IMG/VR virus record: IMGVR_UViG_3300012008_000230
Location: 5,150 to 25,563 of that record
Origin: a virus
Direction: 5' to 3' (one strand)
DNA: 20,414 nt
Of this stretch, positions 2,756 through 17,506 are shown one piece after another. Positions within the stretch are counted from its first letter, which is position 1, and each line of letters starts with the position of its first letter. The position numbers were made by a program, and so were the translations under genes. Under the pieces are notes generated by a model. That model searched no databases. It saw only the letters and a list, made by a program, of their open reading frames with translations, and had not been told where the DNA came from.

Positions 2756-2961
2756 CCGACGACTGGATGAAGCCGAACACCAAGCCGCTCCCGGGCCCGG
2801 TCGCGAGCGAAGCGTTCGTGCTGACCCCGGAGGAACGCGCCCGAATCGCGGCGATCGCGGAGCCGATTACGCTGCCCGCGGCTAACGGAAGTCGGCTGGC
2901 CCCGGGAGGGGACACCGATCACGCACCTTCACAACTCCATACCGGACGATCCGATGCGTAG
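2752..2961 (+). CDS. Small hypothetical protein
   Basis: 69 residues, ATG in an ATGA overlap with the nuclease-like gene. The middle holds a short predicted helix (LTPEERARIAAIAEPI); the ends are polar and Pro/Gly-rich. The last eight bases overlap the integrase start. No family recognised. A GGGAGGGG stretch at about 2903-2910 is too far upstream of the integrase ATG to serve as its ribosome-binding site. Confidence 0.5.
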   Translation: MTDDWMKPNTKPLPGPVASEAFVLTPEERARIAAIAEPITLPAANGSRLAPGGDTDHAPSQLHTGRSDA

Positions 2962-3859
2962 CCCGAAGACGCCGCTGCGCTCAGCGATCGAGAGCTACGC
3001 CCGGCACCATGCCGCGCGGCACTCGAAACTCACCCAGCGCACCTACGGCGGGGCGTTCACGCGGTTCTGCGCCTTCGTCGGCGACGCCTCGATCGCAGAC
3101 CTCAACGCGACCCACGTCAACCGCTACGTCGCATCCTGCGGCACCCACCGCTTCATGGCCCGCGGCGATACTGCGGCGCTCAAGAGCTTGGCGAAGTGGA
3201 TGGTCAAGGCCGGGATCCTCCAGGCCGACCCGCTCGCCGCGGTCATCACTCCGAAGGTCCCGCGCTCTCGAGCCCGGCCGCTGGACGACCGGCTCATCCC
3301 GCAACTGCTCAAGGTCGCGAGCGAGACCACGATGGGCGCGCGAGACCGGGCCATCGTCGCGCTCGCGCTCTCCACCGGCGCACGGCCGAACGAACTGCGT
3401 CAGCTCCGCTACCCCGAGGACATCGACCTCGACTACGGCCTCATCCGCATCCGCGAGGAGACGAGCAAGACGCCGGCGGGCCACCGCGAGGTCCCGATCG
3501 ACCCGCAGGTCATCGCGCTCATCGACGACTACCTCAAGGATTACCGACCGCACCAGCCAGGTCCGCTGTTCCTCAACGCTCACGGCGATCCGCTCACGTA
3601 TTACGGCTTCGCCGCGATCTTCTACCGGCTCCGCGACACGCTCCGCGAGCTCGGCCTGCCCGGATTCACCGCGTACCGGATGCGCCACACCGGCATCACG
3701 AACATGGCCCGCACCCCCGGCTACACCGCGTTCGACATCCAGGTGCTCGCGGGCCACGAGAGCATGGAGACCACCCGCAAGTACGTCCAGCGGCGCTCGA
3801 TCGCCGAACTGCGCCGACTGCCCAGCCCGCTCACCACCGTCTACGGACGGATCTCCTAA
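2954..3859 (+). CDS. int: Tyrosine recombinase / phage integrase
   Basis: 301 residues. Residues about 8-95 form a SAM-like, core-binding N-domain (TYGGAFTRFCAFV, ... LKSLAKWMVKAGIL); about 105-285 form the catalytic domain. Visible active-site residues are R144 (TGARPNELR), K172 (SKTPAGHREVPI), R244 (YRMRHTG), H268 (LAGHES) and the nucleophile Y277 (TTRKYVQRRS). The first His of the HxxR box is Tyr here (Y241), a variation seen in some recombinases. It would catalyse site-specific integration and excision; the truncated tRNA about 115 bp downstream is the likely core of its attachment site. The small size and the lack of an obvious arm-binding N-terminal extension are notable. It starts at an ATG overlapping the previous gene by eight bases. 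Confidence 0.92.
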   Translation: MRSPKTPLRSAIESYARHHAARHSKLTQRTYGGAFTRFCAFVGDASIADLNATHVNRYVASCGTHRFMARGDTAALKSLAKWMVKAGILQADPLAAVITPKVPRSRARPLDDRLIPQLLKVASETTMGARDRAIVALALSTGARPNELRQLRYPEDIDLDYGLIRIREETSKTPAGHREVPIDPQVIALIDDYLKDYRPHQPGPLFLNAHGDPLTYYGFAAIFYRLRDTLRELGLPGFTAYRMRHTGITNMARTPGYTAFDIQVLAGHESMETTRKYVQRRSIAELRRLPSPLTTVYGRIS

Positions 3860-3871
3860 CCGATGCGAGGC

Positions 3872-4105
3872 CGAGTCTGCCGAGACCCAATCTGCTGCGC
3901 TCCGGGCTGCGTCAGTCATGCACCCGCTCGGCTTAGCATCAACGAATTGCCCGCGAACATTGGCACTGCTGCACGGGCCCGTAGCTCAGGGGCAGAGCGG
4001 CGGACTCATAATCTGCTGGTCCCGCCAGGGACCGCTCACGCGTCACACGACGACGAAATAGGGCCAGCCGACCCCGTTAGCCACGTCGAGTCTGCTGGCC
4101 CCTAT
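3872..4105 (+). other. Probable phage attachment region (attP) beside int
   Basis: This stretch lies directly downstream of int and holds no convincing gene. It contains the 5' part of a tRNA (3975-4023) and a motif RRTCTGCYG repeated four times (about 3873, 3889, 4010 and 4088) on both sides of that part. It also has a perfect hairpin GGTCCC-GCCA-GGGACC (4018-4033) at the point where tRNA identity ends, and an imperfect inverted repeat ATAGGGCCAGC (4058-4068) with GCTGGCCCCTAT (4094-4105). A tRNA-derived core flanked by short arm-like repeats next to int is the usual attP layout; the exact crossover cannot be placed without the host site. Confidence 0.55.
3975..4023 (+). tRNA. 5' part of a CAU-anticodon tRNA (Met- or Ile2-type), 3' half missing
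   Basis: GGGCCCG acceptor strand, TA at positions 8-9, a GCTC/GAGC D arm, an anticodon stem (4000-4004 with 4012-4016, one G-U) around the loop CTCATAA with anticodon CAU, and a TGGTC variable region are all canonical. No T arm and no CGGGCCC acceptor partner follow; the sequence turns into a GGTCCC hairpin instead. As it stands it cannot fold as a complete tRNA. It is best read as the tRNA-derived attachment core, whose 3' half would come from the host gene after integration. A tRNA split by an intron is a less likely reading. Confidence 0.7.
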
Positions 4106-4152: not shown

Positions 4153-4317
4153 GTGAGCGTCCAGAAGCTGAGCGTGTGGCTCCCGGTCACCCAGGATGAC
4201 CTCGACGACGCCGCGGCGTTCCCGAAGCCCTACCTGACGGCGTCCGGCGCGATCATCTGGACCTCGGAGCCGCTCGACCCGCTCGTCCACGGCCTGCGCT
4301 GGATCTACGAGCGATGA
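4153..4317 (+). CDS. Small hypothetical protein upstream of ruvC-like gene
   Basis: 54 residues from GTG 4153 to TGA 4317, with a GGGG stretch about eight bases upstream as a weak ribosome-binding site. The stop overlaps the RuvC-like ATG as ATGA, implying coupled translation. The peptide looks coding: a beta strand (VQKLSVWLPV), an acidic helix start (TQDDLDDAAAF) and the end HGLRWIYER. No family recognised. It may assist or regulate the resolvase-like gene, judged only from the coupling. Confidence 0.6.
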   Translation: MSVQKLSVWLPVTQDDLDDAAAFPKPYLTASGAIIWTSEPLDPLVHGLRWIYER

Positions 4318-4835
4318 GGCTCCTCGCGATCGACGAGGGCAGCAAGGCCACCGGCCTCGCGTTCTTCGACGGCTCCGACCGCCCCGCATGGACCCGCGCG
4401 CTCACGCCCGCGGCCGCGTGGCCGTGGCGCCGGCGGATGCGCTGGATCTGCGACGCGCTCCGCGGCGTGCTCGAGACGAACGGGCTGCTCGCGGATCCCC
4501 CGGACGTGATCGCGATCGAGGACGCGGTCGTGAGCGAGAAGAACCCCCGGATGGGCGTCGCGGTCTCGAAGTGCCGCGGATACCTGATCGCCCACCTCGA
4601 CTCGATCTATGGCCTCGAACTGCCGATCATCGACGTGTCGCCCGGGAAGGTGCGGGCCGCGGTCGGGATCTCCGCGTTCAGCGGCCGGGTCCACAGCAAA
4701 GACAGATACAAAGTCGTCGCCCAGTACCTCGGTCTTCCTGCCACGATTTCCGAGGACGAGGCGGATGCGGCGTGCGTGGGTTTGGCGGCGCTCGCTCAAC
4801 TCCGAGAGGAGAACTGGCATGCAATCGCCCGCTGA
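4314..4835 (+). CDS. RuvC-like Holliday junction resolvase
   Basis: 173 residues with the RNase H-fold RuvC pattern: D7 in LLAIDEGSKATGLA, E69 in DVIAIEDA, and D148 and D151 in SEDEADAACVGLA, matching the four-acid Mg2+ site of RuvC (D7, E66, D138, D141 in E. coli). It would cut four-way or branched junctions so that replicated phage DNA can be packaged. The 3' end, from about 4695, is poorer in G/C-ending codons than the start, and its last residues (LAALAQLREENW) closely match the end of the adjacent HNH protein (LAALAQLREEGW). This suggests the 3' end was replaced when the HNH gene inserted. Start chosen at the ATGA overlap. Confidence 0.8.
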   Translation: MRLLAIDEGSKATGLAFFDGSDRPAWTRALTPAAAWPWRRRMRWICDALRGVLETNGLLADPPDVIAIEDAVVSEKNPRMGVAVSKCRGYLIAHLDSIYGLELPIIDVSPGKVRAAVGISAFSGRVHSKDRYKVVAQYLGLPATISEDEADAACVGLAALAQLREENWHAIAR

Positions 4836-5403
4836 ACGCCGCGAGCTCCAGCGGATCCGTCAGCGTGACTACTACCGGAAGAACCACGATGCCGTTCGGC
4901 AGCGAGCGAAGGCCGGATACGAGAGGAACCGAGACGAGGTCAAGGCTCAGGCGCGTGCGTACTACGCGAAGCACGCCGCCGAGCGACGCGCCTATGCGCT
5001 CGCATATAGGCGGGCGCATCCCGAGCTCAAAGCCGCGAGCGATCGGCGCTACGTCGATGGGCATCGGGAGAAGGCGAGGCACAACAATCTCATGCATCGC
5101 TCGCGCCGAGCTGGGAATGGTGGCTCGCACACGGTCCAGGAATGGCTCGACAAGGTCGCGCTGCTCGGCAACTGCTGCATCTATTGCGGCCGCGACGATC
5201 TGCCGCTCAGTCGGGACCACAACATCCCGGTCGTCCGGGGCGGGTCAAGCGATATCAGCAACATCCTTCCAGCATGCAGGCGGTGCAACAGCGCGAAGAA
5301 GGACCGGACCGCAGTCGAGTACCTGGCGGCGCTGGCGCAGCTGCGCGAAGAGGGCTGGCGGGCCCTCGGCGAATCAGGGAAGCGGGCGGCGGCCGTGAAG
5401 TAA
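4819..5403 (+). CDS. HNH endonuclease, probable free-standing homing endonuclease
   Basis: 194 residues. The start is the ATG at 4819, with GAGAGGAG about eight bases upstream; it lies inside the ruvC-like 3' end in another frame (17-bp overlap). Residues 1-90 are a highly charged helical region rich in Arg, Lys, Tyr and Ala (RDYYRKNHD, RRAHPEL), typical DNA-contacting sequence in such enzymes. The HNH domain has C120/C123 (CIYC), D133-H134, N148 and C153/C156 (CRRCNSAKKDR). Codon use is less GC-rich than its neighbours until the tail, which returns to G/C-ending codons and repeats the ruvC-like C-terminus. This is the signature of an inserted mobile gene. Its target would be the ruvC-like allele without the insertion (inferred). 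Confidence 0.85.
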   Translation: MQSPAERRELQRIRQRDYYRKNHDAVRQRAKAGYERNRDEVKAQARAYYAKHAAERRAYALAYRRAHPELKAASDRRYVDGHREKARHNNLMHRSRRAGNGGSHTVQEWLDKVALLGNCCIYCGRDDLPLSRDHNIPVVRGGSSDISNILPACRRCNSAKKDRTAVEYLAALAQLREEGWRALGESGKRAAAVK

Positions 5404-5411
5404 AGGCCGCG

Positions 5412-5573
5412 CTGACCGACCGCGAGCGCGAGGTCGTGCGGTTGCTCCGGGCGGGAGCGCCGTACAAGGCCATCGCGCACCAACTCGGCATCGCCGAAAG
5501 CACCGCCCGGGTGCTCGGCTCTCGGGCGTTTCGTAAACTTGGCGGGAGGCGGCTTCGGCTGCCGGAGGTGTAA
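5412..5573 (+). CDS. Mini LuxR-type helix-turn-helix protein (copy 2), non-canonical start
   Basis: The frame LTDREREVVRLL...KAIAHQLGIAESTARVL...FRKLGG is an unmistakable GerE-type DNA-binding domain of about 53 residues, and is close to copy 3 at 8509 (KAIAHELGMSESTAR). No ATG, GTG or TTG precedes the domain in frame. A CTG at 5412 with AAAGG five bases upstream is the best candidate start. Alternatively the GTG at 5395 is used with a frameshift, or the sequence carries an indel. It lies directly behind the HNH stop and ahead of the 5580 gene, whose ribosome-binding site (GGAGGTG) is within its last codons. Confidence 0.65.
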   Translation: MTDREREVVRLLRAGAPYKAIAHQLGIAESTARVLGSRAFRKLGGRRLRLPEV

Positions 5574-7038: not shown

Positions 7039-8524
7039 CGGCTGCATCTGCGCTGGCTGCAAGGCCGGCCTCGCGCCGTTCACGCTCAAGCACTTCGTCG
7101 CGTGGTCCTCCGACCTCATCCTCGACAACGACGAACGCTGGACGCTCGAGCCGTTCCAGCTCGAGTTCATCGACGATCTCTTCGCGGGCCGTCCAGAAAA
7201 CTGGCTCATCTTGCCCGAAGGTCAGGGCAAAACGACCCTCATCGCGGGCGTGGTGCTCCATCACCTCGAGCACCGGATCATGGGCAAGGTTCCGGTCGCA
7301 GCGAGTTCGCGCGATCAGGCCGAGATCCTCTATGGCCAGATGAAGAGCTTCGTCCGACGTACCCCGCGGCTGCATCGCCTGTTCAACGGCAAGCCGGTGA
7401 TCCGCTGCTTCGACGGGTACCGCGAGGTCGAGCATTTCGTGACCGAGTCGACGAGCAAGGTCTACGCGGCCGACGACAAGACGGCCGACGGCGTGATCTT
7501 CACCCTGGCGATCATCGAAGAGCTCCACCGGCATAAGGACCTGCGGCTCTACCGGACCTGGACCGGCAAGGCCCGCAAGCGCAAGGGCGCCCAGGTCGTC
7601 ACGATCTCGACCGCCGGCGAGCCCTATTCCGACTTCGAGGACACCCGGGAGCGGATCCGCCAGCTGCCGGGTGCCAAGCGTCGGGGCAGTTTCGTGCGGG
7701 CATGCTCCGCGCAGATCGTGATCCACGACTGGTCCGTCCCGCCGAAGGCCGACATCACAGACATGCGAGTCGTGAAGCAGGCGAACCCGTTCAGCGGCAT
7801 CACGACGGAATCACTTCAGCAGGACTTCGACTCGCCGACGATGACGCTGGCGCATTTCTCGCGCTTCAAGGGCAACCTCGCAACGCGCGCGATCAGTTCG
7901 GCGATCAACGACAGCGAGTGGTCGCGCGCTCTCTCGAAAGAGAAGATCCCCGAGGGTGAGCCGATCTGGATCGGCATCGACATCGGCCGCGTCTGGGACA
8001 CCACGGCGATCGTCCCGCTCTGGCCGAGGGATGCCGGCTTCCGGCTCATTGGGCCGGCGAAGATCCTCACGCCGCCGCGGATCAGCGGAGAGCGCCTGAG
8101 CTCCGACGAGATCCACCGCGCGATCCTCGAACTGCACGAGCGCAACCCGATCCACACCGCGGTGATTGACCCGTTCGACGCGAGCGACACGATCGAGTGG
8201 CTGACCGACACCATCGGGTGCGAGGTCATCGAATGGACGAACCGTGACGAGAGCCAGACGGACGACTACGAGCAGTGGATGACCGGGCTCCGAGTCGGCT
8301 GGCTGAAGCACAGCGGCGATCGCGGGCTCACCCGCCACGTCTTCAACGCGGTCGCGCGGATGCTGCCGAATGGGAAGACCCGCTTCGACCGGGCGAAGTC
8401 CAGCCGCCAGGGCGGAGATAACGACGCGCGCGTGATCGACGCGCTCGTCGCCGCCGCGATGGTGAACGCGAAGGTGGCCGAGGAGTTCGGAGAGGACGGC
8501 GGCGACGCATGGGTTGCCAGCTGA
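6785..8524 (+). CDS. terL: Terminase large subunit (start uncertain; homology begins about 7041)
   Basis: Packaging ATPase-nuclease. Numbering from GTG 6785: Walker A LPEGQGKTT (143-151), Walker B with E245/E246 in LAIIEELH, a coupling-type ISTAGEP, and nuclease acids D399 (IGIDIG), D462 (VIDPFD) and D547/D552 (DARVIDAL). The ATP-driven motor would dock on the portal, and the nuclease end cuts the concatemer. The first 85 codons from GTG 6785 are the shadow of the HNH gene and look non-coding; family-like sequence begins near NGCICAGCKAG, at 7041. No start codon lies in frame between the HNH stop and that point. A true start may be GTG 7023 with a one-base frame change, or an HNH-TerL fusion. 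The 3' end overlaps the next gene by 16 bp. Confidence 0.85.
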   Translation: MPPTAPSTAASAKKSSRAPTRSAASATRSGSTAPRASRPTRSTTKSRASAAARRPAPTPGRSVAPVRATRAKGATSGDARGATANGCICAGCKAGLAPFTLKHFVAWSSDLILDNDERWTLEPFQLEFIDDLFAGRPENWLILPEGQGKTTLIAGVVLHHLEHRIMGKVPVAASSRDQAEILYGQMKSFVRRTPRLHRLFNGKPVIRCFDGYREVEHFVTESTSKVYAADDKTADGVIFTLAIIEELHRHKDLRLYRTWTGKARKRKGAQVVTISTAGEPYSDFEDTRERIRQLPGAKRRGSFVRACSAQIVIHDWSVPPKADITDMRVVKQANPFSGITTESLQQDFDSPTMTLAHFSRFKGNLATRAISSAINDSEWSRALSKEKIPEGEPIWIGIDIGRVWDTTAIVPLWPRDAGFRLIGPAKILTPPRISGERLSSDEIHRAILELHERNPIHTAVIDPFDASDTIEWLTDTIGCEVIEWTNRDESQTDDYEQWMTGLRVGWLKHSGDRGLTRHVFNAVARMLPNGKTRFDRAKSSRQGGDNDARVIDALVAAAMVNAKVAEEFGEDGGDAWVAS

Positions 8525-8706
8525 AGAAGCCGGCGCGGGTCATCACCGAGCGCGAGGCCGATGTGGTCCGGCTGCTCAAGCTCGGGCACCGCTTCAAGGC
8601 GATCGCGCACGAGCTCGGGATGAGCGAGTCGACGGCGCGCACGCATGCCCAGATCGCCCGTCGGAAGCTCGAAGCGGTCGGTCTCGCAGAGATCGTCGGT
8701 ATCTAG
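8509..8706 (+). CDS. Mini LuxR-type helix-turn-helix protein (copy 3)
   Basis: 65 residues from the ATG inside the terL 3' end. ITEREADVVRLL, KAIAHELGMSESTARTHAQIARRKLEAVGL is a GerE-type DNA-binding domain covering the whole protein. It is strikingly similar to copy 2 at 5412 and more distant from copy 1 at 1167. Its TAG stop lies within a perfect palindrome (8703-8719), possibly a site bound by one of these proteins (inferred). Confidence 0.8.
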   Translation: MGCQLKKPARVITEREADVVRLLKLGHRFKAIAHELGMSESTARTHAQIARRKLEAVGLAEIVGI

Positions 8707-16736: not shown

Positions 16737-17087
16737 GTGGCGACCGTACCGCTCACGCCCCAGCTGCTCGTCGAGGCCGGCGTCGTGCCGACCTATCACG
16801 TCCCGGCCGAGCTCACGACGACCGACACGTTCTCGGTCCTGAACGCCGGTCGGCTGTTCCTGTACGCGAAGAAGTCGGCCGCGGTCGACTGCGTCATCAC
16901 GTTCGTCACGCCGGTCCTGTTCCGCGGCAAGGCGGTCGCGGACCTCGCGGTCACCGTGCCGGCGAGCACCGGCGAGCTCCTCATCGGGCCGTTCGACCGC
17001 GCGCTCTACAACCTGAATGGCGACCTGACCTTCACGCTCTCGGACATCGACGGGCTCTCGATCGCCGTGCTGTACGAGCCGGCATGA
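16737..17087 (+). CDS. Probable virion structural protein
   Basis: 116 residues, GTG start three bases after the upstream stop. Begins ATVPLTPQLLVEAGVVPTYH, then beta-rich (ADTFSVLNAGRLFLYAKK-like alternation, VTVPASTGELLIGPFDRALYNLNGDLTFTLSDIDGLSIAVLY). I know this type from phage head modules without an assigned role. Its stop overlaps the endonuclease VII-like gene as ATGA, as if that gene had slipped into an existing junction. Confidence 0.7.
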   Translation: MATVPLTPQLLVEAGVVPTYHVPAELTTTDTFSVLNAGRLFLYAKKSAAVDCVITFVTPVLFRGKAVADLAVTVPASTGELLIGPFDRALYNLNGDLTFTLSDIDGLSIAVLYEPA

Positions 17088-17506
17088 GCGGGACTGCTGC
17101 AGCGCAGAGGCGATATCGCGAGTCGCACCGCGAAGAGATTCGCGCGCGCGGCCGGGTGCGGCAACGGGCGTTCTACCACGCGATGACCGATGCAGAGCGC
17201 GCGGTGTACCAGGCCAAGAATGATGCGTGGAAAGCGGCGCATCCAGAACTCGTCGCTGCGGCTGTGCGCCGGCGGCGCCTGCGCAAGTACGGACTGACCG
17301 AGGAAATGTTCTACGAATATCTCGACGCGCAGGAAGGGTGCTGCGGCTTTTGCGGGTCGCCGCTTCCTGAGGATGAGTCTCTAATCGCGATCGACCATGA
17401 CCACAGCACGGGCGCGTATCGAGCACTTCTTCACATGGTCTGCAACCGCGTCGCCGGATTCGCGGAGTTCGACGATCGGTTTGTCGGCTATCTGGCAGCG
17501 TCATAG
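17084..17506 (+). CDS. Endonuclease VII-like (HNH/His-Me finger) nuclease, probable mobile insertion
   Basis: 140 residues from the ATG in an ATGA overlap. Residues 1-70 are charged helices rich in Arg/Ala (RRYRESHREEIRARGRVR, KAAHPEL), similar in style to the N-terminus of the HNH at 4819. The catalytic part shows CGFC (C87, C90), DHDHSTG (104-110) and HMVCNR (H117, C120, N121), the T4 endonuclease VII pattern, except that the first Cys of the second zinc pair is His. The family cuts branched DNA, and relatives behave as homing endonucleases. Its mid-operon position among head genes and less GC-rich codons point to insertion. Confidence 0.8.
   Translation: MSGTAAAQRRYRESHREEIRARGRVRQRAFYHAMTDAERAVYQAKNDAWKAAHPELVAAAVRRRRLRKYGLTEEMFYEYLDAQEGCCGFCGSPLPEDESLIAIDHDHSTGAYRALLHMVCNRVAGFAEFDDRFVGYLAAS

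Follow-up and report, generated by a model that had tools for sequence, protein, structure and literature searches.

Genes at the ruvC 3′ end

The stretch of DNA analyzed here, referred to as the window, comprises 20,414 bases within a virus record of 25,563 bases, a genome fragment of a soil-type phage. The region of interest contains a ruvC-like gene, an HNH gene whose start overlaps the ruvC 3′ end by 17 nt, and an HTH gene. The features are as follows:

4314..4835, + strand: ruvC-like Holliday junction resolvase gene, 173 aa (phrog_159, PF02075, alignment with 7w8d)
4695..4835, + strand: ruvC 3′ block with lowered GC3, a candidate imported replacement end (change point, Fisher test)
4805..4811, + strand: Shine-Dalgarno-like AGAGGAG for the HNH start, read directly, 7 nt 5′ of the ATG at 4819
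4819..5403, + strand: HNH endonuclease gene, 194 aa, ATG at 4819 and stop at 5403 (PF01844, HNH_5, phrog_8660)
5409..5573, + strand: LuxR/GerE-type HTH gene, domain part (PF00196, E = 6e-10), the downstream anchor common to the window and the relative L104

The ruvC product matched phrog_159 in a profile search (E = 4.9e-16), and its match to PF02075 (21.1 bits, E = 3e-4) was just under the gathering cut-off of 22.2. Alignment with the solved RuvC 7w8d placed the acidic residues D7, E69, and D151 in register. Based on the profile match and these catalytic acids, the protein is predicted to be a RuvC family resolvase. The HNH protein matched PF01844 (E = 1.9e-11; 44.4 bits, curated cut-off 21.4), HNH_5 (E = 6e-11, well over the cut-off), and phrog_8660 (E = 8e-17). 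Residues C120, C123, H134, N148, C153, C156, and N157 were invariant across the alignment; with the Cys pairs and the H/N residues kept, the protein is a predicted HNH endonuclease of PF01844. Its N-terminal 100 residues are basic. The terminase match begins near position 7088, and the HNH gene does not adjoin terminase in the window.

The ribosome-site-like AGAGGAG is encoded by the RuvC codons CGA GAG GAG (R-E-E). HNH is probably expressed by coupling to the translation of ruvC, since the HNH start codon and its ribosome site lie inside the ruvC end, itself a candidate import. C-terminal R-E-E codons that double as a Shine-Dalgarno-like site for the next ATG occur both in the window (4804-4818) and in a relative, L089 (1540-1553), despite unrelated next genes. 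The 20-kb region also encodes three small LuxR/GerE-type HTH proteins (1167-1379, 5394-5573, and 8509-8706).

Relatives without the HNH gene

Two HNH-free relatives, neither very close, were found in IMG/VR: L104, using a DNA pattern for LAAxxQLREExW, and L089, using an alignment search. The RuvC of L089 is ~45-52% identical to that of the window. In both relatives, ruvC is followed directly by another gene. In L104, the order is ruvC, a QueC-like PP-loop gene, and then the LuxR-type HTH gene that the window also carries. In L089, the ATG of an unrelated gene occupies the position equivalent to the HNH start, and no HNH gene is at the site. Thus, the HNH gene is present at the ruvC site in the window and absent from it in related phages, the polymorphism used to recognize free-standing homing endonucleases. 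The L089 phage (record G001) does encode an HNH protein, 41% identical to that of the window, but elsewhere in its genome, not beside ruvC, and with a different tail. The second gene of L104 is:

L104 3588-4223: QueC-like PP-loop gene (PF06508, E = 4e-7; phrog_1550, E = 3e-16)

This gene ends in GEGWRALSESGERRAVVT (CGTCGPCTTLAAVRGEGWRALSESGERRAVVT), followed by its stop codon. QueC-like 7-cyano-7-deazaguanine synthases are known from phages (phrog_1550; Bacillus phage SP-15), and L104 carries one in the slot that HNH occupies in the window. In the small phage contig L104, it is a possible DNA-modification gene.

The initial annotation had proposed that an HNH gene entered the 3′ end of ruvC, brought a replacement end, and kept the original tail fused to itself, and it had predicted that the RuvC of HNH-free relatives would extend into LREEGWRALGESGKR. 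This prediction failed in both relatives: the RuvC of L104 ends in LAALAQLREERWAVMAR (LREERWAVMAR, then stop) and that of L089 in LAAFTQLREERWHAAS (LREERWHAAS, then stop).

Further relatives were sought by other routes. Scans of viral and genome contigs with single RuvC, HNH, or terminase proteins gave no matches, nor did tblastn or blastn searches of phages and plasmids with RuvC and the locus. Distant bacterial RuvCs were too remote for their ends to be compared, with none close among 201 genomes of the phylum of G002. A pattern match to ALAQLREESW in L002 was set aside as a chance match in an unrelated protein.

A ruvC-like and a queC-like segment in the HNH tail

The ruvC product of the window terminates in LAALAQLREENWHAIAR and the HNH product in EYLAALAQLREEGWRALGESGKRAAAVK. 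RuvC residues 157-171 align with HNH residues 169-183 (LAALAQLREENWHAI and LAALAQLREEGWRAL, respectively) with a pairwise BLASTP E value of 8e-5. The ungapped BLOSUM62 score of the two C-termini was 61, and the maximum of a null set of 71,162 C-terminal pairs was 46. The null set was built from the C-termini of unrelated ORFs in GC-rich viral loci, with homologous pairs excluded. Over LAALAQLR, the HNH tail and the window's own ruvC are identical at 18 of 24 nt and use mostly different synonymous codons. The similarity noted in the initial annotation, with its differing codons, is therefore real in that it exceeds chance.

Conservation of the HNH domain extends to E-Y, directly ahead of the shared segment. 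Sharing of the tail by unrelated HNH proteins, which the annotation had named as contrary to its reading, was not seen: the tail is absent from all 58 of the other HNH tails collected and from the closest HNH protein found (L090). The same comparisons argued against the tail being native HNH sequence, as had been suggested by alignments with 4h9d and the IscB HNH that reach residues 166-178. Conservation of the tail forced by the HTH gene in the other frame was also rejected, as the differences have no codon-position bias in either frame.

At the DNA level, the tail was divided into two segments, which overlap at the crossover:

5323..5351, + strand: ruvC-like segment of the HNH tail (LAALAQLREE), 26/29 nt identical to L104 ruvC 3538-3566
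5342..5403, + strand: apparently queC-derived segment of the HNH tail (EGWRALGESGKRAAAVK, to the stop), 52/62 nt identical to the L104 queC 3′ end, 4162-4223

Using blastn, the window and L104 aligned from ruvC to ruvC (4313-4810, 70%) and from the HNH tail and HTH gene to the queC tail and HTH gene (5342-5548 to 4162-4368, 75% of nt). The 26/29 match was not relied on alone, given an E value of only 5e-4 and another match, almost equal in score, that looks spurious. In-register comparisons separated the segments. LAALAQLR is identical to L104 ruvC at 22 of 24 nt and to L104 queC at 14 of 24, whereas RALGESG is identical to queC at 19 of 21 nt and to ruvC at 8 of 21. Similarly, informative sites within LAALAQLR matched ruvC only in nine cases and queC only in one; in the 13 codons that follow, 22 matched queC only and four ruvC only. 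Moreover, of the two ruvC genes, that of L104 is the nearer to the ruvC part of the tail (five sites versus one for the window's own). These counts are to be read with the shortness of the ruvC-like remnant, only 8-10 codons, and with a GC-rich codon bias that favors some matches. The switch point is a short TGCGCGnGGAnnnnTGG similarity common to the 3′ ends of L104 ruvC and queC.

On these nucleotide comparisons, the HNH tail reads as a mosaic of a short ruvC 3′-like piece and the 3′ end of a queC-like gene. The last 16-18 residues are almost certainly queC, and LAALAQLRE does look ruvC-derived. Judged from its DNA, GWRALGESGKRAAAVK is not an old ruvC end but the 3′ end of a queC-like gene. 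A C-x-T-[LM] motif follows the last Cys in three of four aligned phage QueCs and is missing from the HNH tail; its occurrence in other phage QueCs is consistent with the L104 QueC tail being native to QueC. Only the last 16-18 codons of queC remain in the window, inside another gene, and the 25.6-kb record contained no further queC match. Searches yielded no ruvC-queC-tail fusion allele, nor a donor with HNH and a complete displaced ruvC end.

Codon composition of ruvC and history of the locus

Toward its present 3′ end, ruvC shifts in codon composition at position 4695. GC3 was 0.96 in codons 1-127 (115/120) and 0.69 in codons 128-173 (31/45; Fisher p = 9e-6). The best change point, at codons 128-129 (~4695), scored higher than all of 200 permutations and coincides with the position at which the initial annotation had begun the insertion. 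The low GC3 runs on from 4695 through the HNH start. No comparable drop toward the ruvC 3′ end occurs in L104 (0.89 to 0.82) or L089 (0.89 to 0.88). The codon-usage argument of the annotation thus holds for the end of RuvC but not for the HNH tail, said to differ from the HNH body in its G/C-ending codons: the GC3 values of 0.88 and 0.78 did not differ significantly (p = 0.42), and that of the body's last 60 codons was 0.83. Third-position identity between the window ruvC and L104 was 0.65 before the 3′ block and 0.52 inside it, a small drop on too few sites to prove foreign origin.

We favor, with moderate confidence, a history in which a free-standing HNH gene of the homing type came in carrying a substitute for the ruvC 3′ end, the native end was displaced, and a deletion fused it to queC. 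Specifically, the nuclease would have recognized an HNH-free ruvC 3′ end. Repair off an HNH-bearing donor would then have copied in both the HNH body and the ruvC 3′ end of the donor (co-conversion), keeping RuvC functional and pushing the native ruvC end in frame onto the HNH C-terminus. Before or after the arrival of HNH, a deletion across the TGCGCGnGGAnnnnTGG similarity of the ruvC and queC 3′ ends would have removed queC, fusing the ruvC remnant to the last 16-18 queC codons, which run into the HTH gene. The tail shares more nucleotides with L104 ruvC (22/24) than with the ruvC of the window itself (18/24), as would be expected if the native end had been displaced and the present one imported. 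With a candidate displaced ruvC end in the tail and a sharp compositional shift in ruvC, import of HNH with a replacement ruvC 3′ end, plus the queC deletion, would be the simplest account. The original proposal survives in part: the first 8-10 tail residues are ruvC-like at the nucleotide level, but the remainder matches the queC 3′ end, and the imported end is favored by a GC3 shift absent from the relatives, while no donor was found and the drop in identity involves few sites. Homing activity of the HNH protein is a prediction, and the ruvC 3′ end is a candidate for its cutting site.

Three other explanations were considered. Local duplication of the ruvC 3′ end, by a tandem event or a template switch, would import nothing and leave the GC3 dip as a patch of mutation or selection. 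It requires no donor, and at the protein level the window and L104 RuvCs are no less alike in the 3′ block (74% identity) than before it (~67%, to residue 127). We nevertheless consider it unlikely: the two copies in the window differ at 6 of 24 nt, compared with 2 of 24 between the tail copy and L104 ruvC, and the dip begins sharply at 4695, extends through the HNH start, and is absent from both relatives. We find it similarly improbable, if anything marginally more so, that HNH replaced the body of queC by recombination through the ruvC end on the left and the queC end on the right, such that all of the tail comes from queC and resembles RuvC by coincidence, on top of an earlier chance resemblance between the ends of QueC and RuvC (L..A..R.E.W). 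The assignment of the last 16-18 residues to queC suits this explanation. Further, TTLAAVRGEGW in the L104 QueC shares L, A, R, E, and W in register with RuvC, possible purine-rich ribosome-site codons (GAG GAG or GAA GAG) at both ends would favor R-E-E, and the match in L002 illustrates that ALAQLREESW can arise by chance. Against it stand the nucleotide identities of LAALAQLR (22/24 versus 14/24) with its informative sites (nine versus one), the missing C-x-T-[LM], and the score of 61 relative to a null maximum of 46; in addition, the T-to-A, T-to-A, A-to-Q, V-to-L, and G-to-E changes are all toward RuvC. If the QueC of a close, queC-intact relative read AALAQLREEGWRALGESG, the tail would be all queC; a QueC tail of AALAQLREEGWRAL in queC-bearing relatives near the window would likewise be contrary to the mosaic.

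Finally, the HNH protein could be a fixed packaging or recombination nuclease in an ordinary gene cassette. HNH proteins of phages can serve as resident partners in packaging (PMC10448857), and the close HNH gene of G001 lies at another genome site, not beside ruvC. We regard this as very improbable given the presence/absence at the ruvC site among related phages, the overlap with the upstream gene, and the lack of terminase adjacency in the window.

The favored history, in which HNH arrived with a replacement ruvC end, resembles the mORF gene hybrids of Glomus sp. (atp6, atp9, cox2, nad3) and Allomyces macrogynus (atp6), in which an endonuclease ORF lies at the 3′ end of the host gene (PMC3630166). 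In those hybrids, the gene bears a replacement C-terminus, and its native one is found downstream, closer to relatives than is the replacement; in the Glomus atp6 hybrid, the native end is ~91% identical to a relative and the inserted copy ~64% (PMC3630166). The mORFs encode LAGLIDADG or GIY-YIG enzymes with long displaced ends in mitochondria (PMC3630166), whereas the window encodes an HNH enzyme in a dsDNA phage. Unlike in the mORFs, the putative displaced end in the window spans only 8-10 codons, is read in frame with the nuclease, and continues into the 3′ end of another gene.

Free-standing homing endonucleases of T4 usually overlap the upstream gene and drive co-conversion of flanks (PMC2988022). 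As in the T4 seg and mob genes described there, the nuclease in the window is intergenic and overlaps an upstream 3′ end, it is of the HNH type as in MobA and MobE, and flank co-conversion is expected. No displaced target-gene end fused to a nuclease was found in the passages on T4 examined, and homing in the window, by comparison, is a prediction. ICP1-type HEGs, of other nuclease families, likewise lie at the boundaries of genetic exchange, between conserved and exchanged genes (PMC10448857); in the window, the breakpoint is readable inside the nuclease ORF.

Our literature search found no phage example of a nuclease with a replacement target-gene 3′ end. We rate as evenly balanced the fuller proposal that a phage HNH homing endonuclease brought such an end in the manner of mORFs, making insertion into a needed resolvase gene harmless, with the displaced native end becoming the nuclease C-terminus. 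If true, the strategy of carrying a replacement gene end extends beyond fungal mitochondria to phages and HNH enzymes. Nuclease insertions would then rewrite gene ends and erase neighboring cargo such as queC, with breakpoints readable to ~10 bases, and the locus would be an unusually readable record of mobile nucleases reshaping phage genes.

The window contains further genes of related interest. An endonuclease VII-type nuclease gene at 17084-17506 (PF02945, E = 2.8e-12) has the lowest GC3, 0.70, among the whole genes measured. It starts within the stop of the upstream gene, and its C-terminus is not a copy of that gene's end. An integrase gene occupies 2954-3859; 3′ of it, 3974-4012 looks like the first (5′) half of a tRNA with a CAT anticodon (GGGCCCGTAGCTCAG...GACTCATAATC); this stretch, at which ARAGORN made no call, could plausibly be the core of an attachment site. 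ARAGORN identified one tRNA-Ser (GGA) gene, at 1974-2048, whose flanks (1834-1914 and 2050-2205) are among the stretches conserved with L104 at the DNA level.
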